Positions 6,906 to 23,708 of a DNA stretch of 38,978 bases are shown piece by piece. This stretch comes from an uncultured Eubacteriales bacterium (GTDB lineage Bacteria > Bacillota > Clostridia > Christensenellales > UBA1242): NCBI GenBank assembly GCA_900321185.1, contig ONVD01000033.1:1-38978 (forward strand). The letters run 5' to 3'. The notes below the pieces were generated by a model. The model ran no database searches. It saw only the letters and a program-made list of their open reading frames with translations, and was not told the origin of the DNA. The translations under genes and the position numbers were made by a program. Within the stretch, counting starts at the first letter, position 1; each line of letters opens with the position of its first letter.

Positions 6906-7165
6906 TGCATAGCACCTATTCTTAGTACATATGCATAACACCTACATATTACTGAGCGTAGTCAGCACAAACAAAAGTATAATATATTTTTGAATATGCA
7001 AATCTCAGTTTTAAATCTTTGGGACGTAAATACTACAAGTGCATAGTATTGGTAGGATAGTCTATTTAAGGTATATAACTGCATATTATACTGTATAAAA
7101 TTTAAAAAACGCGTTATAATTGCTAAAAAACGCGTTTTTATTATAAAAAATTGTTGTACTATGCA
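6906..7165. repeat. Cluster of GTACTATGCA-family repeats
   Basis: This intergenic stretch carries one exact copy at 7156-7165 (GTACTATGCA), a one-mismatch inverse copy at 7040-7049 (TGCATAGTAT), and weaker variants at 6906-6915 (TGCATAGCAC), 6932-6941 (TGCATAACAC) and 7080-7091 (TGCATATTATAC). The outer inverse pair 7040/7156 brackets the terminator at 7105-7141. The same 10-mer recurs in four other intergenic regions of the window. Confidence 0.7.
7105..7141 (-). terminator. Terminator of the rlmN-glycosyltransferase-acyltransferase operon
   Basis: AAAAACGCG and CGCGTTTTT form a 9-bp stem around a 17-nt loop. Read on the minus strand it ends in a T run just after the acyltransferase stop. 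The T/A flanks make it usable in both directions. Confidence 0.7.
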
Positions 7166-7175
7166 TTCATTTTAA

Positions 7176-8021
7176 TTAGATTTTGTAATCTAAATATTTT
7201 TTTAACTCTTGTTTAACCTCTTCGTTTTGTGTTGTATATTCTAGTTTTTGTCCATAAACCTCTTCGTATTTGTCTCTCCATAACGCAAAATTAGTGTATC
7301 TCAAAATTTCTGCATTTTCGGCTTTGGATTTTTTGGGGTCAGGATAGATTGGTGGTAAGATGTGCATGGTTAGATTATATTTTGGCAAACCATCACGTCG
7401 TGGTTTTTTGCGTGGAGCAAAGGTAATAAACATAGGTAGGATAGGGACGTTGTTTTTGGTAGCATAATAGTAAGCACCCCTTTTAAGAGGGCGAGGTTTT
7501 TTGTAATTCCACCAAAGTTCTGCCTCAGGATAGAATACAACAAAACTACCTTTGTCTAACAGTTCGGATATAGCCCGAGATAAGTTTTTGGTATTGGTTA
7601 AGGACCCGCCCAAAGGTAAAATACCACCTTGGCGCAAAAAGAATCCTGCAATACCTTTTTTGTTATTGTTTTCAGACACTGTGTAAAAAATACGTTTATG
7701 TCTAACGCTGTGAGCAATGTAAGTACAATCTAAGTCATGAATATGGTTGCAAGTGATGATTGCACTATTGATATTCTTTAGATTTTGTTTGCCAACGACT
7801 CTTAGATGAGCAATCCCAGAGAAACAGTCACCAGCAATGCGTACAACACCATGCGCCATATATGTGCCCAGTTTGTAAAAAATGTTATGCCTAAGATAGA
7901 CGTAGTCATCTTTTAATTCTGCGACAAGGTTTGGGTTGACAGGTTGAGTTGGTTGGTCAAATAACCCCAAACGTTCGTTCCTCTCAATATTACTTACTAT
8001 TTGTCTTTTCGGTATTCCCAT
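7176..8021 (-). CDS. 1-acyl-glycerol-3-phosphate acyltransferase family protein (PlsC-like)
   Basis: 281 aa from ATG 8021 (GGTGAG 6 nt upstream); an alternative start at 8033 has a weaker site. The PlsC acyltransferase signature NHIHDLD (HX4D, about residues 91-98) and the second block FVVFYPEAELWWN (in place of FPEGTRS, about 160-170) are both present. The RPLKRGAYYYATKNNVPILPMFIT block follows, as in this family. Such enzymes transfer an acyl chain from acyl-ACP or acyl-CoA to lysophosphatidate or another lysolipid at the inner face of the membrane. It overlaps the upstream glycosyltransferase by about 30 bp, so the two are likely co-translated and may act on the same glycolipid (inference). 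Confidence 0.88.
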   Translation of the reverse strand: MGIPKRQIVSNIERNERLGLFDQPTQPVNPNLVAELKDDYVYLRHNIFYKLGTYMAHGVVRIAGDCFSGIAHLRVVGKQNLKNINSAIITCNHIHDLDCTYIAHSVRHKRIFYTVSENNNKKGIAGFFLRQGGILPLGGSLTNTKNLSRAISELLDKGSFVVFYPEAELWWNYKKPRPLKRGAYYYATKNNVPILPMFITFAPRKKPRRDGLPKYNLTMHILPPIYPDPKKSKAENAEILRYTNFALWRDKYEEVYGQKLEYTTQNEEVKQELKKYLDYKI

Positions 8022-9309
8022 AAATCTCACCATTTTCTTCGTAATTGATTCGTTTTATGTGTGTCCATTTAGTATTATTTTTGTTAAAATAGCCAATAAA
8101 AAACGCATTTAGATAGCCAACAAGGTAGATAGGGTTGTAGAGCATGATAGCCAAACGTTCGCCTTTTGTTAATCTAGAATAACTGTCCATTGTGGCTTTG
8201 ACTGCTAGACCTGTGTAAGCCATGAGTCCTAGATAGGATACAGCCAGTATTACCAACGCATCGATTAGGCCCCAGTACCATAATGGGTCATTATTCGCGC
8301 CTAGCACAATAGCACCAATTAAGCCAATCAATAGACATATAAAAGCACTCACACCATATAGTACAATAGGCCAAATGATGTAAACATATTCCCAAGCCCC
8401 TTTATTGGTAGGCTGTCCCTTTGTATGAATCATCTTTTTGACGGTTTTTGTATACATTGACATACATTGCATTGCACCAGTCAGCCACCTTATACGTCTA
8501 ATAACAGTTTGCTTAAATTGTACAGGCTCTTCGGCATAGATAATAGCGTAAGGATAGTACATTGTAGTGTAGCCGTGCAAAATGCACATAACCTTTAATT
8601 CGTTATCCTCAACAATGGTATGGAATTTCCAACCGCCAAAGTCATCTAGGACTCTTTTTTTGACCAGCATTCCTTGGCCACAGAGGTTATCTGGTATACC
8701 ATTTTCATCACGGTAGATGTTGCCAAGGTCATCATTCATGGCATTCATTAACCCCGAGCAAAATGCGAATACGCTGTGCGACTTTTTGTTACCGTCAAAG
8801 GCGTTTTTAATGCGCTTGTGAGGCAGTATTACATCTTTGCCACTGGCCATAGCATTGTTCATTTCTGTGAGATAATTAGGGTCGAGTAAGTTGTCTGCAT
8901 CAATGATTATGTATGCGTCTAATTGAAAGTCTGTTTTGTTTATCTCAGTTACAGCGTAATCTAGGACGTCTCCTTTGCAAGTTTGGTCAGTCTTGACTAA
9001 CACTGTCATATCTGGATAATTTGTCTTGACATATTCACACGTGGGGTCCTGTGGGTCTGCCACTACAACAAAGACTTTGTAAAATTCTTTTGGATATGTC
9101 TGATATTTGAAACTCCCCAAAAGATGTTCTATTGTGCCACTCTCATTACGTGCTGGGATAATAATTGCAAACTTGTTGCGTTTGGAATTGTTAAACTTTG
9201 GAACTTTGTGAAAAGTGCTAAAAAAGTATTTTATGCGTGGTATATACAATAACATAGATAAAATTGCTAATCCAAAAAATGTTGGTAACAAAATTTGTAG
9301 AAAGTTCAT
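7990..9309 (-). CDS. Processive-type family 2 glycosyltransferase, membrane bound
   Basis: 439 aa from ATG 9309 (GATAAGGAGGAG upstream, inside the end of rlmN). There is an N-terminal membrane helix, then a GT-A domain with IIIPARNES (about 50-60), the DXD-like IIIDADNL (about 135), EDNELKV (acceptor/catalytic Asp region) and RRIRW, a variant of the QxxRW motif of processive enzymes. Three to four C-terminal membrane helices follow. It probably moves a sugar from UDP- or GDP-sugar to a lipid or polymer at the cytoplasmic face. Neighbouring PlsC suggests a glycolipid or cell-envelope polymer. Its substrate cannot be told from sequence. Confidence 0.88.
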   Translation of the reverse strand: MNFLQILLPTFFGLAILSMLLYIPRIKYFFSTFHKVPKFNNSKRNKFAIIIPARNESGTIEHLLGSFKYQTYPKEFYKVFVVVADPQDPTCEYVKTNYPDMTVLVKTDQTCKGDVLDYAVTEINKTDFQLDAYIIIDADNLLDPNYLTEMNNAMASGKDVILPHKRIKNAFDGNKKSHSVFAFCSGLMNAMNDDLGNIYRDENGIPDNLCGQGMLVKKRVLDDFGGWKFHTIVEDNELKVMCILHGYTTMYYPYAIIYAEEPVQFKQTVIRRIRWLTGAMQCMSMYTKTVKKMIHTKGQPTNKGAWEYVYIIWPIVLYGVSAFICLLIGLIGAIVLGANNDPLWYWGLIDALVILAVSYLGLMAYTGLAVKATMDSYSRLTKGERLAIMLYNPIYLVGYLNAFFIGYFNKNNTKWTHIKRINYEENGEIYGNTEKTNSK

Positions 9310-9310
9310 T

Positions 9311-10363
9311 TTACTCCTCCTTATCTGTTTGCTCGGCGATAAATTTTGCTCGCAGTTGTCCGCAAGCACCATCAATATCCTCGCCCATGGTACGTCTAAC
9401 CGTAGCAGAAGTACCAAGTTTTTGCAAAGTCTCGGCAAAGCGGTAAGCATCCTTGCGTGTCACACTTTCTAGATTACGCTCTTTGACTTCGTTTAGTGGA
9501 ATAACGTTAAGGTGAGTAGGAAAGCCAGAGAGTAGTTTGTGCAAAGTGCGTGCACACTCCATGGAGTCATTCACTCCACGAATGAGTGCATATTCAAAGA
9601 TAACACGTCTGCCAGTCGCATTAAAATACCTATGTGCACTGTCTATAATTTGCTCTATGGTGTATTTGTTGGCAATAGGCATGATGGTTTTGCGTATCTC
9701 ATCAGTTGGTGCGTGTAGAGAAATGGTTAATACAATTTGCAATTTTAATTTTGCTAGTTTGTCTATCTGTGGTACCAATCCACAGGTGGATACGCTGATA
9801 TTGCGTTGAGATATATTGATACCTTCAGGAGCATTCACTAGATATACAAACTTAACTACGTTGTCAAAGTTGTCTAATGGCTCGCCACTACCCATTAACA
9901 CAATGTTAGTTATCTTTCTAGTTTTGTTATCTCCACCCAGCATTCGATTGACCACCAAAACTTGTGCTAAAATTTCACCACTTGACAAACTACGAATCAA
10001 TCCATTTAGCGTCGATGCACAAAACTTGCACCCCATACGACAACCTACTTGCGTAGATACACATAGCGTATTGCCATATTCATAGGACAATAGTACACCC
10101 TCTATGATGTTGCCGTCGTGTAGTTTGTACAGATACTTTTGTGTACCGTCCTTGCTAACAAGTGTGTGAATAATAGTTAACGGTGTGTCTATATATTGCA
10201 CTTTTAATTTATCTTTTAGGTCTTTTGGAATATTGGACATTTCATCTAAATTTTTGCCCAAGTGCAAATTTTCAAAAATTTGTTTTGCGCGATATTTGGG
10301 TTGTCCCAAATTTAGACAGACTTGTGTTAATTCCTCAAGGCTAAGGTCTTGAATTATTTGCAT
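9311..10363 (-). CDS. rlmN: 23S rRNA (adenine2503-C2)/tRNA A37 methyltransferase RlmN, radical SAM
   Basis: 350 aa from ATG 10363 with TTTGGAGG upstream. The radical SAM cluster motif is GCRMGCKFCAST (CX3CX2C, about residues 106-117). The second catalytic Cys lies in the C-terminal GACGQL block (about 333), and MGSGEPLDN and NISVSTCG are typical of RlmN. It methylates C2 of A2503 in 23S rRNA and A37 in some tRNAs using a Cys-linked intermediate. It is the first gene of an operon with the glycosyltransferase (1-nt gap) and acyltransferase, from a promoter at 10380-10408. Confidence 0.96.
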   Translation of the reverse strand: MQIIQDLSLEELTQVCLNLGQPKYRAKQIFENLHLGKNLDEMSNIPKDLKDKLKVQYIDTPLTIIHTLVSKDGTQKYLYKLHDGNIIEGVLLSYEYGNTLCVSTQVGCRMGCKFCASTLNGLIRSLSSGEILAQVLVVNRMLGGDNKTRKITNIVLMGSGEPLDNFDNVVKFVYLVNAPEGINISQRNISVSTCGLVPQIDKLAKLKLQIVLTISLHAPTDEIRKTIMPIANKYTIEQIIDSAHRYFNATGRRVIFEYALIRGVNDSMECARTLHKLLSGFPTHLNVIPLNEVKERNLESVTRKDAYRFAETLQKLGTSATVRRTMGEDIDGACGQLRAKFIAEQTDKEE

Positions 10364-10379
10364 ACTTCCTCCAAAGTTA

Positions 10380-10408
10380 ATTTTACTAAATTGTGTTTTT
10401 TTAGTCAA
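10380..10408 (-). promoter_or_regulatory. Promoter of the rlmN operon
   Basis: Minus strand TTGACT, 17-bp spacer, TAAAAT, just ahead of the rlmN GGAGG site. Confidence 0.75.
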
Positions 10409-10496
10409 TATCTAATTTGCATAAAATGTCTAAAAATATAAACAATTGTAAAAAATCGTCAAATAAGAAGTATTTTTGCAAGTTTTGGCAAAATAG

Positions 10497-10525
10497 TTGC
10501 CAATTTATCATACTGAATGTATACT
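10497..10525 (+). promoter_or_regulatory. Promoter of the pepF gene
   Basis: TTGCCA (10497-10502), 17-bp spacer, TATACT (10520-10525). The leader is about 25 nt, ending with TTGGAGG. Confidence 0.7.
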
Positions 10526-10556
10526 ATACTAATATACAATTTTGGAGGCGTAAACA

Positions 10557-12332
10557 ATGGAAACCAACAATAAATACACGTGGGACACTACCAAATTTTG
10601 TACGAATCAAGCAGAGTTTGATGAGCGTGTAACAAAGATAACATCTTTAGTAAGTCAGATTGCTAAATACAAGGGTAAACTAGGACAAAAAGAGTCGTTG
10701 CGTGAATATTTGATGCTAGATGACCAACTCTCAGATATGCTTGAAGCTCCGTTTATGTGGGCGCATTGTGCTACTGATGTAGATGTGACAGATGCTAAGC
10801 AAAATGCTAATCAACACAAGTTGGAAGTGCTGTCATCTCAAATAGGGCAAGAGCAGTCATTTGCTACACCTGAGATACTCAGCCAACCAGATAGTTTTTT
10901 TGATGACATTATTAATGATGACCAATTTTTGCCTTGGCGTCAAACTTTTAGAATCTTGAAACAACAAAAAAAGCATGTTCTTAATGACGAACAACAAAAG
11001 ATTGTGTCAGCCTTGTCACCAATTATGGAGAGCTTTACCAAAACTTTTTCGTCTTGCGTCTACGGAGATATCAAATTTGGTAAGATTATGGATAGCAAGG
11101 GGGTGGAGCATGAATTAACTAACACCAATTATCAATTTGTGCTCGAAGACCCAGACCGTACACTGCGCAAGAATGCGACCGAACGTTATTTTGAAGTGCA
11201 TGGACATTATCTCAACACTCTTACAGCCAACCTAAATGCTCAAGTCCAACGTAATACTATAATGGCGAAACTCTATCATTATCCTACGGTCTTTGATTCG
11301 GCATCATCGGGTCTAAACATCGACCGCGCATTTTATGATAAATTTATGGTCAACGTCCAACCGTTCTTTAAATTGTACAAACGTTTTAACGATTTACGTC
11401 TAAAAACAATAGCGAAGCAATATGGCATAAAAGACCTAAAGGAATATGATGCTGGTCTGCCGATAGGTAAAAAATTGGAAAATATAAGTTTCGAACAAGC
11501 GTTAGAAAAGGTCAAAAATGCACTGAGTATTTTGGGTAAAGACTATATCACTCAAATTGAACGTGCTGTCAACGAGAGATGGATAGACGTTTATCCAAGT
11601 GCTAATAAATTTTCGGGTGGATATTCTAGTTCTATCCACGGTTATTCTCCAGTTATTTTACTAAACTGGGAAAACTCGCTAGATGATGTATATACCCTTG
11701 CACACGAGTTGGGGCACGCTATTCGTCATGTGTATTGTGGAGAAACTGGCTATCGCGAAGCACCTCAAACGGCAATGTTTGTGGATGAAACGTTTAGCAC
11801 GACCAATCAAGTTTTGCTCTATCGTTACCTTGTGGAAAATGAAAAAAACAAAGATGCCAAAATATATATATTATCAGAATATATCTCCAATTTGTTACAT
11901 TACTTGTCATCTGTCCTAGATAGTAAATGTGAGGACTATTTGTATACCAAAATGTTACAAAATACACCTGCCAGCAAAGATGAAATTTTGGAGTATACCA
12001 AATCTGTTTATGCATGTATCCAGTCTGATATAATTAGTGAGCGTCATTCGTCAGTACGGACCCTTGTTATGTTTCATTATTACAGTTTGCCGTATTACGT
12101 TTGGCAATATACTTGCGGTATCTTAAACGCCAACTTTATCGCTAACAATATACTAAAGGGTGATAGTGCTTATGTAGACAAATATCTACAATTTTTAAGT
12201 TCAGGCTCTATGTATCCTTTGGATGCTTTAAAAATTGTAGATATAGACTACAATACTCAAGACGTTTTTGATGCCATGAGGGCGGAATTAAATATGCGTA
12301 TTGACCAACTAGAGAAACTTTTAAATGAGTAA
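10557..12332 (+). CDS. pepF: Oligoendopeptidase F, M3 family zinc metallopeptidase
   Basis: 591 aa, the usual length for PepF. The N-terminal M3_N helical region includes the W-D-x-T start (YTWDTTKFC). The zinc site is HELGHAIRH (HExxH, residues 383-387) with the third ligand in FVDETFST about 28 residues later. These cytoplasmic enzymes cleave peptides of roughly 7-17 residues and serve peptide turnover and nutrition. Start: TTTTGGAGG 8 nt upstream of ATG. It is a single-gene transcription unit with its own promoter and a 17-bp terminator stem. No active-site residue is missing. Confidence 0.93.
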   Translation: METNNKYTWDTTKFCTNQAEFDERVTKITSLVSQIAKYKGKLGQKESLREYLMLDDQLSDMLEAPFMWAHCATDVDVTDAKQNANQHKLEVLSSQIGQEQSFATPEILSQPDSFFDDIINDDQFLPWRQTFRILKQQKKHVLNDEQQKIVSALSPIMESFTKTFSSCVYGDIKFGKIMDSKGVEHELTNTNYQFVLEDPDRTLRKNATERYFEVHGHYLNTLTANLNAQVQRNTIMAKLYHYPTVFDSASSGLNIDRAFYDKFMVNVQPFFKLYKRFNDLRLKTIAKQYGIKDLKEYDAGLPIGKKLENISFEQALEKVKNALSILGKDYITQIERAVNERWIDVYPSANKFSGGYSSSIHGYSPVILLNWENSLDDVYTLAHELGHAIRHVYCGETGYREAPQTAMFVDETFSTTNQVLLYRYLVENEKNKDAKIYILSEYISNLLHYLSSVLDSKCEDYLYTKMLQNTPASKDEILEYTKSVYACIQSDIISERHSSVRTLVMFHYYSLPYYVWQYTCGILNANFIANNILKGDSAYVDKYLQFLSSGSMYPLDALKIVDIDYNTQDVFDAMRAELNMRIDQLEKLLNE

Positions 12333-12341
12333 TCATTAGTA

Positions 12342-12387
12342 AAACAAAATGACTTTACTTTGTGTTATGTAAAGTCATTTTGTTTAA
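12342..12387 (+). terminator. Terminator of pepF
   Basis: A perfect 17-bp stem (AAACAAAATGACTTTAC and its complement, 10-nt loop) lies 10 nt after the pepF stop. The arms end in T/A runs, so it may also stop minus-strand transcripts from 12595-13296. Confidence 0.85.
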
Positions 12388-12594
12388 ACATAATTGAATT
12401 AGTTTTGTCAAAAAATCAGCAAATTGTGGGTACTGGTTGTAACATAGTCTAATCATTAACAGAAAATTTGTTTTTAATTAAAGATTAATACTCTGAAAAT
12501 TAATAAAAAGTTGTAACAAGGTTTGTATGCTAAGTTGTTTGTTTGATGTCAAAAATCGTCTACCGAAGATATTTTTTGGTTTTTACGATATAGG

Positions 12595-13296
12595 TCAAGT
12601 GGTACTATCTTTTTGGTTCAGTTGCGGGTATTTTTGAGAGGCGTCTATTTGGTTCTCGATTTTGCCAACGTTTTGTCCTAATGTCTCATCAATGGTGATT
12701 TTGATTTTCTTTTTGGTTTCTGTCACAAGAGTAATTTTTGCGTGTGCAATTTTTGAAAATCGTATTTCTTCGTTTTTGTGTTCGATAATACCTAGGAATA
12801 TTAGGTCTACAGCTTCCCACAAAAATACCCAACTAGTTATGTCAATGATTTCAAAAATTGACACGTTGCTAGTTATGTCAAATAATAAGCGCAACAAAAA
12901 GTACAGCCCAAACACCAAAAGACCGATAACAAACATAAGCAAACCTTGTTGTACCTGTTTTTTATATTGTTTTTTGCTTTGAATAAGTTTTTTGGTGTAG
13001 TGGTTGTTGAGAGCTTCTTCGATGTTCTGTTTGTTGGCACTGTCGTCTTTTGGTGTGAGGATACGAAACTCCACATTATCTTTGAGTGATAAACAATCAC
13101 ATACGTTGTCGATATGGTCCACCAACCCCTCGTTGATAATAGGGTTGTTTTTGGTCGCAAACTCCGAATATATTTGCCCTTTGCCCAATTTTAACTCGTA
13201 GACTAAATCACCATCCTTATTAGTGCCAAACAAAGTTAAATCTCTGTGTTTGATTTTCTGTCTTACTTCATTCATTTTTTTGATTGATTTTAACAT
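12595..13296 (-). CDS. Two-helix membrane protein of unknown function
   Basis: 233 aa, start at 13296 with AGGGGTAAAA upstream. A cytosolic-type N-terminal domain of about 110 residues (start KIKHRDLTLFGTNKDGDLVYELKLGKG) is rich in charge. Two membrane helices follow (LLMFVIGLLVFGLYFLLRLLF and WVFLWEAVDLIFLGII), then a beta-like C-terminal tail (AKITLVTETKKKIKITI). I do not recognise a family. It has a good promoter at 13328-13356 and is transcribed alone. Confidence 0.72.
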   Translation of the reverse strand: MLKSIKKMNEVRQKIKHRDLTLFGTNKDGDLVYELKLGKGQIYSEFATKNNPIINEGLVDHIDNVCDCLSLKDNVEFRILTPKDDSANKQNIEEALNNHYTKKLIQSKKQYKKQVQQGLLMFVIGLLVFGLYFLLRLLFDITSNVSIFEIIDITSWVFLWEAVDLIFLGIIEHKNEEIRFSKIAHAKITLVTETKKKIKITIDETLGQNVGKIENQIDASQKYPQLNQKDSTT

Positions 13297-13327
13297 TTTT
13301 ACCCCTATTTAAAACTTTTTCGTAAAA

Positions 13328-13356
13328 ATTATATCTATTTTTTGTTTGTTTGACAA
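13328..13356 (-). promoter_or_regulatory. Promoter of the 12595-13296 gene
   Basis: Minus strand TTGTCA, 17-bp spacer, TATAAT. Confidence 0.75.
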
Positions 13357-13361
13357 CAAAA

Positions 13362-13391
13362 AATAAAAACATAACCAAAAATTTTGGTTAT
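13362..13391 (-). terminator. Terminator of the 13401-13997 gene
   Basis: The palindrome ATAACCAAAA / TTTTGGTTAT (13371-13391) directly follows the stop codon and is followed on the minus strand by a T-rich run. It lies just upstream of the next promoter. Confidence 0.7.
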
Positions 13392-13400
13392 ATTTCTTGG

Positions 13401-13997
13401 TTAAAGTTTTTGTGTTGTCAAGTCGTTCTTTGGTTGTGCAGGGTCAGTGTTGTTCTTCTTGACTATGTTGGTAATATTGATAACTAGCAACAAAAGCGCG
13501 AGGAATAATATTAGCATTATCCAAAAAAAGTTACCATAGAACAACTCGATGATTTCGCCTACATTGTAATGCGTGCTGATTACTTTGGCGTAAAACTGGT
13601 CAAGTAAAATTGTCGATGTGATTGTCCCGTCCGAAACTTGCATGGTGCCAGCCTCTGTATCTAGATTCAAAAATTTAACCACATAATAAACAGTGCGACC
13701 TGATGTGTTGGTGTCGGTGTAAATGATTAGGTCATCTGACGATAGCATGCTGAGATTGGCGCCCTTGTCGTAGACAACCGCAGTCGGCTCGTTCACGATG
13801 TTAGAACGCCAGCCATCGTTGTCTACTGTGGAGATGGCTAGACCTTGTTGCATGTTTGGGGCAATATATCCCAAGTAGGCGATTAATGGTACAAGCACCA
13901 TCACAACACAAAGCACTATAAATATGATTTGCAAGGCTACCAAAAAGTGATAGACTGGCAGTTTTTTGTAAGGTTGTTTTGGTATAGATTGAGACAT
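13401..13997 (-). CDS. Membrane protein with central extracytoplasmic domain, unknown
   Basis: 198 aa from ATG 13997 (TTGGAGGG 5 nt upstream, so the longer frame is not used). Topology: helix at about 18-42 (LVALQIIFIVLCVVMVLVPL), an outside domain of roughly 100 residues, helix near the C-terminus (FFWIMLILFLALLLLVINI), and a short polar tail. The outside domain (AVVYDKGANLSMLSSDDLIIYT, then a short beta-rich stretch) is reminiscent of the substrate-binding half of type I signal peptidases of the SipW kind. I see no catalytic Ser in an SGSMxP context, so an enzyme is not claimed. The 35270-35875 protein has the same layout. Confidence 0.72.
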   Translation of the reverse strand: MSQSIPKQPYKKLPVYHFLVALQIIFIVLCVVMVLVPLIAYLGYIAPNMQQGLAISTVDNDGWRSNIVNEPTAVVYDKGANLSMLSSDDLIIYTDTNTSGRTVYYVVKFLNLDTEAGTMQVSDGTITSTILLDQFYAKVISTHYNVGEIIELFYGNFFWIMLILFLALLLLVINITNIVKKNNTDPAQPKNDLTTQKL

Positions 13998-14020
13998 GTA
14001 ACCCTCCAATTATACAAGAG

Positions 14021-14049
14021 ATTATACACACTAGTTTGTTATTTGTCAA
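14021..14049 (-). promoter_or_regulatory. Consensus promoter of the 13401-13997 gene
   Basis: Minus strand TTGACA, 17-bp spacer, TATAAT: a perfect match. The predicted start near 14014 leaves a leader of only about 17 nt. Confidence 0.85.
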
Positions 14050-14090
14050 TTAAGTTGAAAAAACAAAATGATTAACCATAAAAAAAGCGG

Positions 14091-14120
14091 TTGACAAAAT
14101 CATGTATTTTGGTCTATAAT
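14091..14120 (+). promoter_or_regulatory. Consensus promoter of the 14159-16137 operon
   Basis: TTGACA (14091-14096), 18-bp spacer, TATAAT (14115-14120). It is divergent from the equally strong minus-strand promoter about 40 bp away, so both flanking units should be well expressed in growing cells. Confidence 0.85.
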
Positions 14121-14158
14121 AAAGATATACAAAAATCTAACTAAGGGGTGTTAACACT

Positions 14159-14752
14159 ATGGAAAATACTAAACAAGTTTTGGACAGCAAGGCAATGATT
14201 GTGGATGCCAACAAACAAAACGAAAAAATTGCTGAAATGTTGACAAAGGCAGACCAGATAATCGCTACCAACGACTTAAAGCAAATCAACACATATCTTT
14301 CGGAGTTAAAAGAGGCTGGAGGTATGTTGCCAAAAACAAAACTAAAAAAAATTGCTGACAACTTGTCTGTCAATATGACTGATGACCTCGGGGATATTGC
14401 GTTTTTTGTTAAAAATTATGGCGAGTTTGGTGCTATTAGTTCAAAATTGATCAAACGCATTATGATACAATACAACAAAGCTAGCGAAGCGGAGTTTATG
14501 ACATACTTTGCAGATATGGTATCTGGCATGAGTGACTCGGACCTTGACAAACTAATCGCCGAGACAAAGGGTAATCCAAAACTTAACGCTATTTGTCAAC
14601 GCATCAAAAAGCGTCGTATGGCTAACCAAGCAGTTCATGACATTGAGATGCACAACTTGCAGACATTTGAAGCACCAAAAATAAAACGTACCACACAAAA
14701 GAAAGCAACCAAACAAGATGAACAAGCAAATGTTAAGACCATGAGACGTTAA
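14159..14752 (+). CDS. Soluble helical protein of unknown function (first gene of a two-gene operon)
   Basis: 197 aa, RBS AAGGGGTG, ATG at 14159. No membrane segment or signal peptide. Predicted almost all helical: an N-terminal acidic/amphipathic helix region, a middle block (LSVNMTDDLGDIAFFVKNYGEF), and a highly basic C-terminal tail (IKRTTQKKATKQ, ending VKTMRR) suited to nucleic acid or partner binding. No family recognised. It is 26 bp upstream of the 452-aa gene, with one promoter and one terminator for both, so the two products probably work together. Confidence 0.75.
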   Translation: MENTKQVLDSKAMIVDANKQNEKIAEMLTKADQIIATNDLKQINTYLSELKEAGGMLPKTKLKKIADNLSVNMTDDLGDIAFFVKNYGEFGAISSKLIKRIMIQYNKASEAEFMTYFADMVSGMSDSDLDKLIAETKGNPKLNAICQRIKKRRMANQAVHDIEMHNLQTFEAPKIKRTTQKKATKQDEQANVKTMRR

Positions 14753-16137: not shown

Positions 16138-16192
16138 CTTTTGTGTTAATTTCGAGGTCAAGATATAATGTTTGAATATACTACAAACAGTT

Positions 16193-16227: not shown

Positions 16228-16315
16228 TGTGTTCATACCAATACCCTAACTAACAAGATTTTACTATATATTAAAATTTAATGCTTATATCTGATATGTT
16301 CTATATTTATGCAAT

Positions 16316-16343
16316 AAACAAAAAACAAGGCGATTACCTTGTT
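16316..16343 (-). terminator. Terminator overlapping the stop codon of the 302-aa gene
   Basis: On the minus strand AACAAGG, a six-base loop TAATCG, then CCTTGTTTTTTG. The TAA stop of the gene is in the hairpin loop, so the 7-bp stem begins within the last codons. The ribosome would mask it while translating to the end. Confidence 0.65.
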
Positions 16344-17242
16344 CTCATTTGATTGTACCCTTCGTTAATTTCATTCTCTCTCCTTTTGGTGTGTCGCATT
16401 TCTTGGCTAAAGACCTGCAACCAATATTGAATATATCTTGTTTCGTATTTTCTAGGTGTGATTGTTACTTCGCTGTTGTATTTTTCTTTTGAAGGTGAGC
16501 CAGTTAAATCATTGACAAAATTGTGATGGTCTCCGTTTGGCATACCCCAATTTCTAAGGCTTTCGATTTTCATTTCGGTAAGTGGTATTGAGTACATTCT
16601 TTTTTCTATACCCGGAACAGTTTTTGCACGTGCAAGTGGGTCAGGTGAATAGGTAGGAGTGAATGTGGTAGATAAAGGCATTTTGTAAATATCAAATACC
16701 AATTGTTTTGCCTGTAATGTCTCGTTTGTTAATCCGCCAATTTTTGCGTTGATAGCACTAAGCAAGCCAAACATAACTCCAGCAGACATTAGGTCAAAGT
16801 AACGCGTAACTACTGTTTGTGCTCGTTTGTCGTTGTATTTGGAGATGTCGTCAATAAGCGACATGGTATCAAAGTACAAACCATACATTGATGAATTTAG
16901 CGACAGCACATGATATTGCCTAAGGAAAGCATTAACCATATCTTTTGTATCCTGACTAAATTTGGGATTGTTTAGTATTTTTTCCTCATATGCAGGTACG
17001 ACATTCTTATTGTAATATTCATAACTCTTATCAAATATGAATTGGCGATCGGAGATACTCTCAACTTTATCCCAATCTAGCACTTCACGACTACCTACAC
17101 CATATGCTCCCTCAAGCATGTAGGCGTGTTTTAATTCGGTGTTAGGTATACCCATTATGTGTGTTTGTAGGGTAACGGGTATGTATATAAATGGAAAATC
17201 ATCGTTTAAATCAACAGAGTTTTGTTCGTAAGAGGTGTTCAT
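16334..17242 (-). CDS. 302-aa soluble protein of unknown function
   Basis: ATG at 17242 with AAAGGAG 9 nt upstream and a consensus promoter at 17280-17308. No signal peptide. Mostly polar, with a moderately hydrophobic middle (YFDLMSAGVMFGLLSAINA), and Tyr- and Met-rich. The C-terminus is strongly charged (MRHTKRRENEINEGYNQMRTR region). No recognised motif. The upstream neighbour on the same strand is a decayed gene of unknown type (17360-17950), so the pair may have been one lineage-specific locus. Confidence 0.75.
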   Translation of the reverse strand: MNTSYEQNSVDLNDDFPFIYIPVTLQTHIMGIPNTELKHAYMLEGAYGVGSREVLDWDKVESISDRQFIFDKSYEYYNKNVVPAYEEKILNNPKFSQDTKDMVNAFLRQYHVLSLNSSMYGLYFDTMSLIDDISKYNDKRAQTVVTRYFDLMSAGVMFGLLSAINAKIGGLTNETLQAKQLVFDIYKMPLSTTFTPTYSPDPLARAKTVPGIEKRMYSIPLTEMKIESLRNWGMPNGDHHNFVNDLTGSPSKEKYNSEVTITPRKYETRYIQYWLQVFSQEMRHTKRRENEINEGYNQMRTR

Positions 17243-17279
17243 AATACAATCTCCTTTGTATTTATTTCGTATTTAACAT

Positions 17280-17308
17280 AGTATACTACTATTTATTCGA
17301 ATAGTCAA
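17280..17308 (-). promoter_or_regulatory. Promoter of the 302-aa gene
   Basis: Minus strand TTGACT, 17-bp spacer, TATACT. Confidence 0.75.
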
Positions 17309-17359
17309 TACCTATTTTTTAAATTTTTGTCTCAACGTGCGTTATGTAGGTTTACTATT

Positions 17360-17950
17360 TTATTTATGTTTAGTCATTGTTGCATCCTCTGTTATCTGTT
17401 CATTTTGATACTGTACGGTTGCTTTTCTCTCGTTGTTAAGTCTTTTTACATTTTTGTACCAATCTGGCTCATATCCATAATCATTATCCTTTATCTTGCG
17501 TCGCTCTTCAAATTATACTTTAGCATTCATTATAATATTTTCAATTTTATTCTCATCAATATTATCCAACTTGTATTCTAACGCGACTAGTGGCAAGCAT
17601 TTGTCTTGTTTAATTTGGTGATGTTCGATGACACCTTGCATAATGATGATAGACATAACCCCCGCTAACGTAGTAGTATAGAGAGTAGAGTTATTTTTTA
17701 TTAATTCTGTGGCGATAAGCGCTGGTACATACCACAGATGTTTTATTGCCGACTCGGCAACGTATTTAGTCATTTTTTTAGAAGCAAGATTTTAAGTTAT
17801 CTCATTCCATTGAGGATAGATAACTCTCTCATGTATACCATTTTTACCATTTAGTGGTTTAGTGCCAAACAGTTTTTTACGCTCTTTAAAATATGCTGTC
17901 TGAATAAAGTACCAAGACGGAAACAGTGTCGTTTGACTATTTTTTGAGTT
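17360..17950 (-). pseudogene. Decayed gene with two in-frame TAA codons, function unknown
   Basis: Three consecutive open stretches lie in one frame, separated by only TAA at 17792-17794 and TAA at 17513-17515, ending at 17360-17362. All three read like real protein: FPSWYFIQTAYFKERKKLFG to PQWNEIT; then MTKYVAESAIKHLWYVPALI through NIDENKIENIIMNAKV; then FEERRKIKDNDYGYEPDWYK to the C-terminus. Each stop could come from CAA (Gln) by one C-to-T change, and no frameshift is needed. The 5' end is unclear: no RBS or start is found and a TGCATAGTAC repeat abuts it. The middle part has one weakly hydrophobic segment. No family recognised. Confidence 0.6.
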
Positions 17951-17952
17951 AA

Positions 17953-17962
17953 TGCATAGTAC
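17953..17962. repeat. GTACTATGCA-family repeat, exact inverse copy
   Basis: TGCATAGTAC, immediately upstream (in minus-strand sense) of the pseudogene at 17360-17950. A partial TGCATA follows at 17983. Confidence 0.7.
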
Positions 17963-18079
17963 TGCCGTAAAATATAAAAAAATGCATATTTTTTGCAAAA
18001 AACAGTACTTTTATGGCAAAAATTGTGTGGTTTGTATTAAAAAATCTAGAATTTAGTGTGAAAAATTTGTTTTGTGATA

Positions 18080-18109
18080 TTGCATTTATTATCTAGTTTG
18101 TGTTATAAT
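18080..18109 (+). promoter_or_regulatory. Promoter of the 18199-19647 gene
   Basis: TTGCAT, 18-bp spacer, TATAAT (18104-18109). The leader is about 80 nt. Confidence 0.65.
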
Positions 18110-18198
18110 AGATAGAGATTTTTTAAATAACATATCAATTTGTTTGTGTTTTTTTATGTTATTTGTTAAACTATCAACAAAAGGAGGGCTATGGAGTT

Positions 18199-19647
18199 AT
18201 GTTGGCTAAAGACGAAGTTCAGCCTATTCAGGATATTTTTAATGAGTTAAGGTCTAGATCCAGCGCTTCTATTGTGCCTCGTACCATAGACCCTAATAAA
18301 AATTATACCATAGAGAGTGTATACGAAAACGAGTTGCAACACCGCAAACAACAAGTTATTGCCGACTTAAAACGTGAAGATGTTTTTATTGATACTCAGA
18401 TTGACGGCAAAGTGGAGACCTATTACAAGGGTAACGATACATATACAAACTTACTTAGGTCACAACTTATGGAAATTGACGGGCTTTTGCCTGATTTAAA
18501 AGCGCATTTGACTTATGTTCAGTTAAAATACAAACCTAACGGTGTTGAGTTGATTGGCGAAAAGCAAGTGGCAATTAAGCGCGATGGTATTATGACCAAA
18601 GAAAAACAACTCAAATGTCCTATATTCGTTGACGCTAATATTTTAGAGAGTCCCAAAGGCAAGGGGTATGGGATATTGATGCAAGAGTTAAAAGACAATG
18701 AATTGGCCTTTCATGACCCTATAACACTAGAAAAACGTGAACAAGAGGCAAAAAAAGCAGATGAATTTGTGGCTGAACATTTAGAAGATATACAACAAGA
18801 CGAAGATGTCGAGCAAAACAGTGAGTCAGAGGTAAATCAAATTATCCCACAACGGTCACCTCAAATAATTGACGAAGATATCGAGCAAAATGAGGATGAT
18901 ATGGTTACTGATACCATATTAGATGACTTGACAACACAAGATAACGAGACTAAATCTCATGTTGAGACCGAGTCAGAAACACAATCCGAGCCTGCATTAG
19001 ACTCTACATCTGAGTCAGAACCACAAGTAGACAATAATGATGACAATTCATTACAAGAATTGCTCTCGTTTATATCTCAAAAAAACAACGAACTCTTTAA
19101 GACATCTAACACATCATCAAAAGGACAAGAGGTATCTGATGCTATCAAGAGTGAAAACGCAAAAGATGATGATACAGCTAGTTTCGGTTGGCTGTTTGGT
19201 AACAATGAAGATATTTTACCAACTCCTCCACAAAAAGAAGTTGTACAAGATGCAGTGCAACCAAGCCCTGCACACAATGAACAGTCATTATTATCTAATG
19301 TAAAAGCACAAGTAGAGCAACTACTAATGACAGAGCACGAAATGAAACTCTATAACTTTAAACGTGCGGCAGAAGAGGTTGAGGATAGGATTATTGATGC
19401 ATATGGTGGAGACAAGGCACGTGCATCATTAGATGTGGATTATCAAAAACTAAAAGGTTTTGTGGATAATAAAATAGCCGAACAACAGCAAAATGTGGTG
19501 CCAGAACAACAAAAAGTTGACTGGAGTTTGCCCGAGAATAAACCTATCATGGACCAAGATTATCAGAAAAAACGTGATACGTTTTCCAAAAAATATAACG
19601 AAGATTTGTTTGGCGAAATTCAAGGACGTGCACAAAATACAAAATAA
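18199..19647 (+). CDS. 482-aa acidic soluble protein of unknown function
   Basis: Start chosen at ATG 18199 (MLAKDEVQPIQ), served by AAAGGAGGG or the nearer GGAG; the upstream frame has no site. Order: an ordered N-terminal domain of about 175 residues (PRTIDPNKNYTIESVYENEL, GKVETYYKGNDTYTNLLRS, VELIGEKQVAIKRDG). Then about 170 residues of Asp/Glu/Ser/Gln-rich disorder (TESETQSEPALDSTSESEPQ). Then a C-terminal helical region (VKAQVEQLLMTEHEMKLYNFKRAAEEVEDRI) ending in a charged tail. No membrane segment. No family recognised. A linker joining two interaction domains is the most that can be said. Confidence 0.78.
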   Translation: MLAKDEVQPIQDIFNELRSRSSASIVPRTIDPNKNYTIESVYENELQHRKQQVIADLKREDVFIDTQIDGKVETYYKGNDTYTNLLRSQLMEIDGLLPDLKAHLTYVQLKYKPNGVELIGEKQVAIKRDGIMTKEKQLKCPIFVDANILESPKGKGYGILMQELKDNELAFHDPITLEKREQEAKKADEFVAEHLEDIQQDEDVEQNSESEVNQIIPQRSPQIIDEDIEQNEDDMVTDTILDDLTTQDNETKSHVETESETQSEPALDSTSESEPQVDNNDDNSLQELLSFISQKNNELFKTSNTSSKGQEVSDAIKSENAKDDDTASFGWLFGNNEDILPTPPQKEVVQDAVQPSPAHNEQSLLSNVKAQVEQLLMTEHEMKLYNFKRAAEEVEDRIIDAYGGDKARASLDVDYQKLKGFVDNKIAEQQQNVVPEQQKVDWSLPENKPIMDQDYQKKRDTFSKKYNEDLFGEIQGRAQNTK

Positions 19648-19677
19648 AGATAGCATACATGTGCTGTCTTTTTTTTG
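19646..19677 (+). terminator. Terminator of the 18199-19647 gene
   Basis: A 10-bp stem (AAAGATAGCA with TGCTGTCTTT, one G-T pair) is followed by eight T. It overlaps the TAA stop. Confidence 0.8.
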
Positions 19678-19733
19678 ACATTTTGTAAAATAAAATGGCT
19701 TAATTATTAGAGTCACATTAAGTACTTTTGAAT

Positions 19734-19949
19734 GTATTATGCAGTATGCTAAGAGTGTCACAAGAATATAAATTAGTATTTAAAATATGTACTATGTACT
19801 ACATTTTTTAACATTACAAAACTAAGTACTATGCATTTATAATATTAAATTATTTGTATGTAATAAAATACCACGTAATATCAAGATAAATCTAGGTACT
19901 ATGCACTCTGCACACGTCTGTTATCATTTATGGAAGTAATGCATAGTAT
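19734..19949. repeat. Dense cluster of GTACTATGCA-family repeats
   Basis: Copies: 19734-19743 (GTATTATGCA), 19789-19798 (GTACTATGTA), 19826-19835 and 19896-19905 (both exact GTACTATGCA), and 19940-19949 (inverse, TGCATAGTAT). The 19896 and 19940 copies form an inverted pair with a 34-nt loop. The rest of 19678-20106 is AT-rich and I see no gene in it. Confidence 0.75.
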
Positions 19950-20106
19950 CTGTGCTACAATAAATTGGCATTGTATATAATATGCACTAGTTACGTTTGG
20001 GGGAAAATATATACAATATAAGTCTTTATTTCAAAAAGTAAAAATAACAATTTTTGAACATTTTTAAAAAATTTAACAAAAATTACTTTAAAGTATATCA
20101 AAATTA

Positions 20107-20135
20107 TTGACATTTTTTAGCAAATTTTATATTCT
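20107..20135 (+). promoter_or_regulatory. Promoter of the DUF1538-PII operon
   Basis: TTGACA (20107-20112), 17-bp spacer, TATTCT (20130-20135). The leader is about 20 nt. Confidence 0.65.
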
Positions 20136-20160
20136 CTTTTAAATGGGGGGAATAGTGGGT

Positions 20161-21639
20161 ATGAAAAATGCGTTGCTAGTTAAGTTAAAAGAGAGTTTTT
20201 TGTCAATTTTACCCATTACCTTAATTGTTTTGTTGCTGGGTGTTACGCTAGTACCATTATCGGGGCAAATTGTCCTCAATTTTTGTATTTCTTGTGTACT
20301 ATTGGCTGTTGGTATTGCGTTGTTTAATCTTGGTGCGGATACTGCTATGCTACCTATTGGTCAGCATATTGGTGGACATCTTAGTAAAAAGAATAACCCT
20401 TGGCTCATGGCGTTGTTTTGCTTTTTGTTAGGGGTGATTATTACTGTCGCTGAGCCAGACTTGATGGTGTTGGCTGAACAAGTCTCCAGTGTGGATACAT
20501 GGGCGTTTATAGTTACTGTATCTGTCGGTGTAGGTGCATTTTTGGTGCTTGGATTGTTGCGCATTTTGTTTAAGTGGAGCTTTAGTGTAGTCATATCTAT
20601 CTCTTATGTATTAATATTTATAATGGCTATTTTTGTAGATAGTGGCATTATTCCACTGTCGTTCGATTCGGGCAGTGTCACCACGGGGCCTATATCTGTA
20701 CCTTTTATTATGGCGTTTGGTATAGGTCTTGCGTCTGCTCGTGGTACTAACAACAAAGAAGATAGTTTTGGGCTGATTGGTTTTGCTAGTGCTGGCCCTA
20801 TTTTGGCTGTTATGATACTCATGTGTGCCCAAGGTGTCAATAGTGCCGAGCCTGTTATTTCCGAAAACTTAACATTTTTGCAAGCAATCCCTATATATCT
20901 AAAAGATGTGGGGCTAACAATCTTGCCTATTGCTCTATTTTTTATACTTTTCCAAATTTTTGCTCTCAAATTACCTTTTCATGAGGTTGGTAGGATAATC
21001 ATAGGACTTGTGTATACTTACATTGGTATTGTTATCTTTTTGGTTGGGGTAAACGTAGGTTTTATGCCTGTTGGCAAACTTATCGGTCAAGGCATGGCGT
21101 CCGAACATGCTTGGGCGCTGATTCCTATTTGTTTGGTCATTGGCTTTTGTATGGCGATGGTCGAACCTGCTGTACAAGTCTTAGCCAAGCAAATCGAAGA
21201 AATCACTGGTAGGACTGTTAAAAAAGGGGTTATGATTTTGTGTGTAGCAATAGGAGTGGCTATTGCATTGGCATTATGTGCTGTGCGAATTTTAACCCAT
21301 ATATCTATATTGTGGATTTTAGTTCCTGCATATGCTATTACCATTATACTTAGTTTTGTGGCACCCAAGTTGTTTGTCGGCATTGCATACGATTCGGGCG
21401 GAGTTGCCACAGGAGCGATTGCTACAACTTTTGCTTTGCCTATGATTATGGGCGCATGCACAACGTTAGGTGGCAATTTGTTGTATGACGCATTTGGTAC
21501 TCTAGCTTTTTGTGCCATTGCTCCAATATTGGTTGTACTAGTGTTTGGTGTTATTTACAAACTCAAAGCCAACAAAGTTAAGGCTAACACCGAAGAAACA
21601 GAAGAACTCAAGTGTATCGATATTGTAGAGTATGATTAG
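20161..21639 (+). CDS. DUF1538 family polytopic membrane protein (putative transporter)
   Basis: 492 aa. Start at ATG 20161, where GGGGGGAA gives a usable site; the ATG at 20143 has none. About 12 membrane helices are built as an internal duplication. Repeat one has GADTAMLPIGQHIGGHL, ITVAEPDLMVLAEQV and DSGSVTTGPISVPFIMAFG. Repeat two has GVNVGFMPVGKLIGQGM, AMVEPAVQVLAKQI and DSGGVATGAIATTFALP. The paired AEP/VEP and DSG-x-x-TG motifs define the DUF1538 family and suggest a transport path formed by two inverted or parallel halves. Substrate unknown. It lies 15 bp before the first of two PII-like genes, so its activity is probably controlled by them, as AmtB is by GlnK (inference). Confidence 0.88.
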   Translation: MKNALLVKLKESFLSILPITLIVLLLGVTLVPLSGQIVLNFCISCVLLAVGIALFNLGADTAMLPIGQHIGGHLSKKNNPWLMALFCFLLGVIITVAEPDLMVLAEQVSSVDTWAFIVTVSVGVGAFLVLGLLRILFKWSFSVVISISYVLIFIMAIFVDSGIIPLSFDSGSVTTGPISVPFIMAFGIGLASARGTNNKEDSFGLIGFASAGPILAVMILMCAQGVNSAEPVISENLTFLQAIPIYLKDVGLTILPIALFFILFQIFALKLPFHEVGRIIIGLVYTYIGIVIFLVGVNVGFMPVGKLIGQGMASEHAWALIPICLVIGFCMAMVEPAVQVLAKQIEEITGRTVKKGVMILCVAIGVAIALALCAVRILTHISILWILVPAYAITIILSFVAPKLFVGIAYDSGGVATGAIATTFALPMIMGACTTLGGNLLYDAFGTLAFCAIAPILVVLVFGVIYKLKANKVKANTEETEELKCIDIVEYD

Positions 21640-21654
21640 GAGGAAAATAGAGTT

Positions 21655-22071
21655 ATGAATAATAAAAAATCACCTATCAAAGTACTTTGTGCTCGTGTAC
21701 CTCGCACAGAGGCAGGAGAAGCGAGCGAATTGTTGTATCGCATGGGTGCTAGCGTGTGTCTGTCTATGTTGGGGCTACATACCAAAGATTTTACCGCATC
21801 AAATATATTAGGATTTAATCAAGAAGAATGTACAATCTTACTTAGCCTTGTGCCTACCGAGCATGCGCACGAAATTTTGACAAAGTTTTGTGATTATTTT
21901 GACCAGATGTCCGTACATTGTGTGGTATTTGTTACAAATATTAATGCAATTAGTCGAGATACACTCAATCAAAACAAAGATTTACAAAATGCGATTCAAC
22001 AAATCTTTATTGACGAAAACAATGAAAAATCGGTACAAAACGAAGTCGAACCGCAAAAGGAGGGTAAATAA
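21655..22071 (+). CDS. PII-like small regulatory protein (first copy)
   Basis: 138 aa, RBS TTAGGAGG overlapping the end of the transporter gene. The fold pattern is ferredoxin-like: beta (KVLCARVPR), alpha (EAGEASELLYRMGA), beta (CTILLSLVP), alpha (HAHEILTKFCDYF), beta (HCVVFVTNIN), the pattern of PII/GlnB-like trimers, though sequence identity to classic GlnB is low. The C-terminal 30 residues are polar and probably flexible. It is followed directly by a second PII-type gene. Probable role: ligand-responsive regulator of the DUF1538 protein. Confidence 0.65.
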   Translation: MNNKKSPIKVLCARVPRTEAGEASELLYRMGASVCLSMLGLHTKDFTASNILGFNQEECTILLSLVPTEHAHEILTKFCDYFDQMSVHCVVFVTNINAISRDTLNQNKDLQNAIQQIFIDENNEKSVQNEVEPQKEGK

Positions 22072-22476
22072 ATGTTATTCAAACAAGGTATGTCTCTAAT
22101 TATTACTATGGTAGATGCAGGTTTTTCGTCACAAGTTATCAAGGCTAGCAAGGCAGCAGGTGCCGAAGGTGCAACAGTTTTGCAGGGGCGTGGTACAAGT
22201 ATTCACGAAAATGAACATTTTATGGGTGTGGACATACAACCTAGTAAAGACATCGTGTTAATCATGGTAAAAAAGTCCCAACGCAAAATAATAATGAAAG
22301 AAATTGTGCGTGCATGCAATATGGCAAAACAGGGCAAAGGAATGACCTTGGCTGTGCCTATAGAAGAAGTAGCTGGTGTACCGCATTTGCTAAAAAAATC
22401 TAATGATGACTCAAGTATGCCAGATATTGAATCAGAAAATAAATCTTCAACCAAAGTTGATAAAAATGATGCATAG
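22072..22476 (+). CDS. PII family nitrogen-regulatory-type protein (second copy)
   Basis: 134 aa, RBS AAAGGAGGG, ATG immediately after the preceding stop. The PII fold is clear: a beta-strand start (MSLIITMVDAGFSSQVIKASK), GAEGATVLQGRG (like GAxGxTVxxVxGxG of GlnB), a T-loop region, DIVLIMVKKSQRKIIMKEIV, and the C-terminal GKGMTLAVPIEEVAGV block (compare GDGKIFVxPVEEV). The uridylylated Tyr of GlnB is not evident. The C-terminal 25 residues are acidic. Its last codons and TAG stop are built from a TGCATAGTAC repeat (22470-22479). Confidence 0.85.
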   Translation: MLFKQGMSLIITMVDAGFSSQVIKASKAAGAEGATVLQGRGTSIHENEHFMGVDIQPSKDIVLIMVKKSQRKIIMKEIVRACNMAKQGKGMTLAVPIEEVAGVPHLLKKSNDDSSMPDIESENKSSTKVDKNDA

Positions 22477-22479
22477 TAC
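22470..22479. repeat. GTACTATGCA-family repeat supplying a stop codon
   Basis: Exact inverse copy TGCATAGTAC. The TAG of this copy terminates the second PII-like gene (reading GAT GCA TAG). Confidence 0.75.
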
Positions 22480-22539
22480 CAGCAAAACGGCAACAATCTA
22501 GCTAAATAATATGTATTATCTTATGTTTTTTGCAAAATA

Positions 22540-22569
22540 AAAAATCTAACATGTCGTGTTAGATTTTTT
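22540..22569 (+). terminator. Bidirectional terminator between the PII operon and degV
   Basis: AAAAATCTAACA and its complement form a 12-bp stem around a 5-nt loop with T runs on both strands. It lies between convergent genes. Confidence 0.85.
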
Positions 22570-22647
22570 TGTTAAGTTTAACAATGTTTTGTTTTTGTTT
22601 TTTTTGTTATACCACCAACGCAGTTATTATACTTTTTGGTGTTTTTG

Positions 22648-23520
22648 TTATTTATAATATTCGCATGCAGTGATTGCAATAGCGCCTTCGCCAATGTGAC
22701 AAGAAACCGACAAACTGAGTGGGTCCAAAAATTCTACTTTTAGACCATATTTTTCTAGAGCTTTTTCTGCTTCTTCTTTAAATTGTAGACACTTATCTTT
22801 ATCATAAGTGTACGCCATACTGATTTGCATACGACCTTGTTTTTGCAAATCTGCAAAAATTGTATCTAGGTCTTTAATAATTTGGTCTATCATCTTTTTC
22901 TTTGCTTGAGCCACGGTCATTACTTGGCTAAATTTGTCTAGTTTTTGTCCCTCTATCTTTAGTACGGGCTTGATGTGTAGCAATGACCCAATCGCTGCGG
23001 CGGCTGGAGTAATGCGCCCACCTTTTTTGAGATACTTAAGTGTTTGCACCATAATGTAGATTTTTGCATTCATGCTCGTCTGCATTAGATAATCTTTGAT
23101 TTCTTTGGCGTTCTTACCCTCTTTTGCGAGTTTCAAAGCGTCATATACCGATAGTTTTTGCGTAACAGATATACGCTTGTTATCCACCACTTGCACCTTG
23201 CCGTCAAATTGTTTGGCAAAGTTGGTGGCTGTTTCGCAACTGGTTGACAGTCCGCTACTCATAGGAATGTGTACAATCTCGTCATAGGTCTTTAAAAGAT
23301 TTTCCCAAGTCTCCATAATAGTATATATGTTAGGTTGACTAGTCGATACATCTGCACCACCAAGAAGTTTTTCGTAAAATTGTTCTTGTGTTAGGTTAAC
23401 ATCTTCAAAATATTCTTCGTCATTGATTAAAAAAGGCATTGGAATGACTGTTACCCCTAGTTTTTTTGCCTCTTGTGGTGTGATTCCACTATTACTGTCA
23501 GTAACAATTGCTACTTTCAT
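22648..23520 (-). CDS. DegV family fatty-acid-binding protein
   Basis: 290 aa from ATG 23520 (TTGGGAGG upstream), starting KVAIVTDSNSGI as DegV proteins do. The fatty-acid-binding block HIPMSSGLSTSCETA (about residues 80-95), the VDNKRISV segment and the C-terminal SVSCHIGEGAIAI complete the fold. In Firmicutes these proteins (FakB type) bind exogenous fatty acids and present them to FakA kinase, which forms acyl-phosphate for phospholipid synthesis; no fakA is in the window. It is transcribed alone from the promoter at 23553-23581. Confidence 0.93.
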   Translation of the reverse strand: MKVAIVTDSNSGITPQEAKKLGVTVIPMPFLINDEEYFEDVNLTQEQFYEKLLGGADVSTSQPNIYTIMETWENLLKTYDEIVHIPMSSGLSTSCETATNFAKQFDGKVQVVDNKRISVTQKLSVYDALKLAKEGKNAKEIKDYLMQTSMNAKIYIMVQTLKYLKKGGRITPAAAAIGSLLHIKPVLKIEGQKLDKFSQVMTVAQAKKKMIDQIIKDLDTIFADLQKQGRMQISMAYTYDKDKCLQFKEEAEKALEKYGLKVEFLDPLSLSVSCHIGEGAIAITACEYYK

Positions 23521-23552
23521 TTTTTCCTCCCAAATAATTGTTATTTTAATTG

Positions 23553-23581
23553 ATAATACCAAAATTTTTGTTTCGCGTCAA
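23553..23581 (-). promoter_or_regulatory. Promoter of the degV gene
   Basis: Minus strand TTGACG, 17-bp spacer, TATTAT. Confidence 0.7.
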
Positions 23582-23640
23582 GCAAATTGACAGTCAAAGT
23601 TTTTTGCGTGCCAATTAGTTGTTTTTAGACACGCCAAATA

Positions 23641-23708
23641 ATACTATGCGGGAGTATTATGCAGGGTACTATGCAGTCAAAATTTGGTGGTTTTGGGGTG
23701 CATAGTAC
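23641..23708. repeat. Cluster of GTACTATGCA-family repeats with an inverted pair
   Basis: Four units in 68 bp: 23641 (ATACTATGCG), 23654 (GTATTATGCA), 23666-23675 (GTACTATGCA exact) and 23699-23708 (TGCATAGTAC exact). The last two form a perfect 10-bp inverted repeat with a 23-nt loop. No T tract follows, so it is not a terminator. Confidence 0.8.

Follow-up and report, generated by a model that had tools for sequence, protein, structure and literature searches.

A 38,978-nucleotide stretch of DNA from an uncultured Eubacteriales bacterium (contig ONVD01000033.1 of assembly GCA_900321185.1; the whole stretch is hereafter called the window) contains a dispersed, mostly intergenic 10-mer, GTACTATGCA. 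We consider it likely, from comparing sequences across relatives, that the copies of this word are sites of a PadR protein with a predicted membrane anchor, here named LPadR, that these sites were ancestrally autoregulatory and were multiplied in two genera, and that tethering is the best guess at their present function. That LPadR recognises the word, as a full site or a half-site, is well supported, if by indirect evidence, and we hold this part more firmly than the account as a whole. The first-pass annotation of the window had suggested either a binding site of a chromosome-wide protein or a REP/REPIN-like family; the former suggestion is supported and LPadR is the specific candidate. This connects an unexplained repeat with one particular protein, not characterised before, that is encoded by a large family of gut Clostridia that are uncultured and have reduced genomes. 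A literature search for the 10-mer itself returned only primer-like chance matches, and in the literature searched we found no paper on a membrane-anchored PadR or on the word.

Enrichment and conservation of the word

The assembly containing the window (G000) comprises 906 kb in 60 unordered contigs and is 97% complete. We found 121 exact copies of the word in it, in mixed orientation as had been noted for the window (56 on the plus strand and 65 on the minus strand), compared to five copies of the reversed word. This control word contains CG and thus possibly understates chance; a second-order Markov expectation was used as well. Coding statistics cover 371 kb of G000 stretches, which contain 117 of the 121 copies. 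There the word exceeds every other 10-mer in over-representation, with 117 copies observed versus 1.3 expected on both strands (~90-fold enrichment). Although only 16% of this sequence is non-coding (~84% coding), 82 of the 117 copies (70%) are intergenic. Thus, neither a lack of enrichment nor an equal frequency in coding sequence was found, the two outcomes that the first-pass annotation had named as speaking against its proposal. The orientation of the word relative to the nearest gene shows no bias.

The conserved block is R-GTACTATGCA-C, about 12 bp long, with A or G at position -1 in 91% of copies and C at position +11 in 64%. Its edges are sharp, as the information content drops to background outside these 12 bp. 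The form of the word in this genome is RGTACTATGCAC. A copy may stand alone, be paired with another in direct orientation across a linker of variable length or in inverted orientation, or overlap with another in a palindrome (TGCATAGTACTATGCA); longer overlapping chains such as GTACTATGCATAGTACTATGCA also occur.

When comparing relatives, we find 43 and 81 exact copies in the genus-mates of G000 and 0–11 in other genera of the family. Counted as RTAYTATGCA, about 70–200 sites are present in two genera, g1 (which includes the window) and g57, mostly in gaps. A comparison of G000 with its congener G002 covered 55 orthologous gaps, whose flanking proteins are mostly 59–87% identical. A G002 site (at most one mismatch) was kept in nine of the 11 gaps that bear a site in G000, versus none of the 44 other gaps (P=9e-9), and individual copies move and turn over inside the conserved gaps. 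That the same gaps are occupied in two species is the pattern of selection on a binding site and argues against mobility. Outside the 147-genome family set, the 2.3-Mb genome G045 from another family contains about 20 dispersed copies of a composite element of ~44 bp, TGCATAGTAC-N18-TGCATAGTACTATGCA.

LPadR, its promoter and its recognition helix

In four gut Clostridia metagenome-assembled genomes (MAGs), the word arrangement lies upstream of one gene starting MEIKEIPRGQLSTIILSTLLDGDKYGYEIIKDIE, which encodes LPadR. The gene is single-copy in G000, with its PadR domain at C26:21965-22186, and in closely read genomes it is divergent from a small metal-hydrolase-like (YgjP-type) gene. The N-terminus of LPadR is a PF03551 winged-helix domain (residues 10–83; 63.9 bits versus a curated cut-off of 27), which PDB PadR chains match at E 3e-12. 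According to sequence prediction, this domain is followed by a disordered, acidic linker of low complexity, several hundred residues long, and by four C-terminal hydrophobic segments; the latter are putative transmembrane helices that would locate the protein to the membrane.

The LPadR promoter of G000 carries one exact site and two one-mismatch sites. To extend this to the family, we used the 300 bp upstream of LPadR in 108 genomes, covering 36 genera of the family and G045 outside it. The motif is present at no more than one mismatch in 50 of the 108. Among the 101 low-copy genomes, 45 carry it upstream of LPadR, compared to a mean of 1.2 for 500 permuted motifs; 45 was reached by one permutation only, identical to the motif, followed by a near copy shifted by one base (36). 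In genera g5, g6, g8, g9, g14, g39 and g51, a TTGAC -35 box follows a site within a few bases, and the spacers between sites diverge. When words were searched for de novo in the LPadR promoters of 11 genera, TTGCATAGT ranked first, being found in 42 of 43 genomes, and the LPadR promoter of G045 carries the full palindrome TGCATAGTACTATGCA. This placement suggests that LPadR is probably autoregulated.

Furthermore, the presence of promoter sites covaries with recognition helix alpha3. The helix sequence 'SLYS' is found in 46 of the 50 LPadRs with a promoter site and in 20 of the 58 without, the others having 'TLYSC/TLYT' (46:4 versus 20:38, P=3e-10 by genome). By genus, 'SLYS' compared to 'TLYSC/TLYT' gives 18:1 with sites and 5:13 without (P=3e-5). 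In genus g3 (e.g. G004), the helix is a different one, KLPSLYSNL, and so is the inverted repeat that occupies this place in the LPadR promoter, ATAATACAC...GTGTATTAT. G130, the single low-copy member of the site-rich genus g57, is without PadR. A search for a conserved motif in the promoters of 'TLYSC' LPadRs yielded only -35-like and coding words. Together with the precedent of cdPadR1 of Clostridioides difficile, this covariation suggests that LPadR probably binds the sites, and it provides a ready data set for the rules of PadR DNA specificity.

Several observations weigh against our account. About 30% of the copies lie inside called open reading frames. The palindrome TGCA-N8-TGCA does occur in G045 and several G000 clusters, but single asymmetric 10–12-mers make up most of the genomic copies, whereas PadR operators are usually dimeric palindromes. 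Genome G149 has 134 degenerate copies yet no PadR was found in it (93% complete), and the copy-rich G165 and G188 have no proximal site at LPadR. 'SLYS' LPadRs without a proximal site occur in g3, g17, g40, g53 and part of g14. The argument for tethering comes solely from the architecture of LPadR, and an AlphaFold2 model of LPadR from three sequences was uninformative (pLDDT 34) and was not used. With regard to g17, the three genomes inspected have 3–4 exact copies near LPadR in a distal cluster, which lies in a convergent gap in the one genome with full context. G130, the single low-copy member of the site-rich genus g57, is without PadR.

Possible roles of the sites

We propose the following scenario. 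The ancestral LPadR would have bound one to three copies directly upstream of the -35 box in the promoter of its gene, plus sites in a few other gaps. Selection would then have multiplied the sites in g1 and g57, in gaps of every gene orientation, with the sites of g1 densest around the parA-parB/oriC region. A membrane-anchored LPadR with about 100 sites would hold the nucleoid at the membrane, the origin region first, and LPadR at its sites may also tune transcription nearby. The tethering or architectural step, suggested by the protein architecture, is plausible but tentative. Similarly speculative is the notion that LPadR constitutes a new, ParB-independent chromosome-anchoring system, with a long flexible tether and about 100 selected, origin-concentrated sites, which in g1 may have taken over origin positioning or nucleoid occlusion. 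If true, the PadR family, whose known members are small soluble repressors, would include membrane-anchored DNA-binding proteins with chromosome-wide sites, and LPadR would be a candidate for what holds a chromosome at the membrane where Noc and, in the present case, apparently also canonical parS are missing.

The strongest alternative is that LPadR is an ordinary membrane-bound one-component regulator resembling CadC or ToxR and that the copies serve a large regulon as its operators, without any architectural role. We lean somewhat against this explanation, but it has a good deal in its favour: PadR proteins are transcription regulators, sites are present at the LPadR promoter, and in low-copy genera conserved sites recur at dacA, at plsC-pheS and in the spoIIIA operon, between spoIIIAB and spoIIIAC. 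The latter sites are possibly a small ancestral regulon. However, sites in G000 are present in co-directional, divergent and convergent gaps, and the convergent gaps are at least as site-rich as the promoter-bearing gaps (31% versus 15%, P=0.09). They are also closer to 3' ends than to 5' ends of genes (49 versus 33), and the genes adjoining them have no function in common. An actual enrichment in convergent gaps, suggestive in G000, is absent in G002, and we thus do not claim it.

The densest cluster likewise speaks against this explanation, as it is found in a 2.3-kb non-coding gap beside parAB, between rsmG and parA-parB on contig C2 of G000. This gap contains nine exact copies and two perfect DnaA boxes. 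Within 4 kb around parAB, there are 12 exact copies, compared to at most five elsewhere in G000, and G002 has about ten sites (at most one mismatch) in 2.7 kb around parAB. Three copies, one of them with a mismatch, lie exactly 45 bp apart in the disordered start of G000 parB (L031:8031-8130) and are translated in frame as VHST/VNST.

This clustering around and within parAB raises the question of whether the word is the centromere site of ParB in g1, that is, its equivalent of parS. No parS-like site within two mismatches was found anywhere in G000 or G002, the ParB of both genomes (contig C2 (L031), 4812-9094, in G000 and contig C15 (L370) in G002) has KxAPNSARAL in the specificity region where most have SAGHARAL, and the palindromic form of the word is 16 bp long, as is parS. 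We nevertheless rank this explanation low, because in the site-rich G165 parB still has two canonical parS beside it, with the word located elsewhere. In addition, G001 has the same ParB variant and retains a near-parS, the sites track LPadR rather than parB across the family, and more than 100 scattered copies are unlike parS. A centromere thus appears improbable. With a changed ParB specificity helix and no canonical parS in g1, it is conceivable that LPadR has taken over origin positioning or nucleoid occlusion.

The suggestion of a REP/REPIN-like family, or of another small mobile repeat, did not hold up, and we consider it very improbable. The dispersed intergenic location, the mixed orientation, some inverted pairs and the composite element of G045 do resemble such repeats. 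However, a profile search for the RAYT (Y1) transposase (PF01797) yielded no match in G000, whereas control genomes were matched. The word is also shorter than such repeats: conservation ends beyond ~12 bp, and no hairpin unit of 20–30 bp was found. Furthermore, the spacing between copies is variable, the same gaps are occupied in G000 and G002, and the position upstream of the -35 box is fixed in many genera. Least credible of all is a DNA-uptake sequence or methylation-linked word, which would fit a 10-bp length, high copy number and both orientations but leaves the footprint at the LPadR promoter and the recognition-helix covariation unexplained.

The sites in the window and comparison with known systems

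All seven exact copies and five one-mismatch copies that had been listed for the window are present, and we found three additional one-mismatch copies at 6906, 1090 and 1837. The window thus contains seven exact and eight one-mismatch sites. Shuffled windows have 2.8 +/- 1.8 sites at no more than one mismatch, and 15 sites were reached in none of 100 shuffles. The second-order Markov expectation of ~0.14 exact copies per window on both strands agrees with the earlier estimate of less than one. Also as described before, the listed copies lie in gaps except for the one at the second PII-like gene.

The listed copies, together with that at 6906, fall into five groups. The first (6906-7165) includes an exact site GTACTATGCA (7156..7165, plus strand) in the gap between an acyltransferase gene (7176-8033, minus strand) and a metallophosphoesterase gene (5706-6941, minus strand), and the one-mismatch sites ATACTATGCA (7040..7049, minus) and GTGCTATGCA (6906..6915, minus), the latter probably directly upstream of where the metallophosphoesterase gene actually begins. 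The second is a single exact site in a divergent gap (17953..17962, minus). The third group (19734-19949) comprises the one-mismatch sites GTATTATGCA (19734..19743, plus) and GTACTATGTA (19789..19798, plus), two exact sites (19826..19835 and 19896..19905, both plus), the former in the gap upstream of a DUF1538 gene (20143-21639), and a one-mismatch site ATACTATGCA (19940..19949, minus). The fourth is an exact site (22470..22479, minus) across the TAG stop codon of the second PII-like gene (22072-22476). The fifth (23654-23708) includes a one-mismatch site GTATTATGCA (23654..23663, plus), an exact site (23666..23675, plus) in the divergent gap upstream of a DegV gene (22648-23562, minus) and an exact site inverted relative to the latter (23699..23708, minus).

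None of the genes in the window encodes LPadR. A gene at 18163-19647, with sites on both flanks, encodes an acidic, mostly low-complexity protein of 494 aa that has no Pfam or NCBIfam match. The region 20143-22476 contains the DUF1538 gene (UmpA/UmpB-like, with two fused halves) followed by two PII-like genes.

We also scanned 84,980 genomes for tandem pairs of the word, which matched many gut Clostridia MAGs, among them the four with the arrangement upstream of LPadR. The scan also matched Thermoguttaceae, Halomonas, Sulfurimonas, Pelagibacter and others; these matches look unrelated, being either due to chance or short tandem arrays. Thermoguttaceae/planctomycete MAGs contain dispersed short tandem repeats of TAGTGCA / TGCATAGTACTTAG around a GCAAAGCGCT core in recurrent order, apparently a separate STRR/hairpin repeat family that is unrelated to the word.

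Among known systems, the motif that cdPadR1 of C. difficile binds in the promoter of its own gene is GTACTAT(N2)ATTATA(N)AGTA, which matches the genome at about 200 places; half of these are convergent or intragenic (PMC5050560). It thus resembles LPadR in protein family, in a motif starting with GTACTAT, in autoregulatory placement and in many convergent or intragenic matches. However, cdPadR1 is a small soluble PadR-s2 protein without a long linker or membrane helices, and its motif continues with N2-ATTATA-N-AGTA whereas the word continues with GCA. PadR operators are generally ATGT-N8-ACAT (PMC3506622); the palindrome TGCA-N8-TGCA (TGCATAGTACTATGCA) shares this 4-8-4 layout but differs in its bases, and most copies here are half-like. 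The parS core, tgTTtCACGTGaAAca, differs in sequence from the word, and both coexist in G165.

With respect to membrane association, Noc of Bacillus subtilis recruits the chromosome to the membrane through about 70 scattered sites and a membrane-binding protein (PMC4331003). With 121 sites here and four predicted C-terminal hydrophobic segments, LPadR would resemble Noc as a membrane-associated DNA-binding protein with tens of dispersed specific sites. Noc itself was rejected as the protein in question, as G000 has no second ParB paralogue: a search with TIGR04285 returned one sub-threshold ParB-type protein only, in G000 and in most f1 genomes. Moreover, Noc is a paralogue of ParB and carries an amphipathic helix, whereas LPadR belongs to the PadR family and has predicted transmembrane helices. 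The one-component regulators CadC and ToxR also combine a DNA-binding domain, a linker and a membrane part in one protein; they differ from LPadR in that they belong to another DNA-binding family, have few sites and have a single membrane helix with a periplasmic sensor (PMC6320335).

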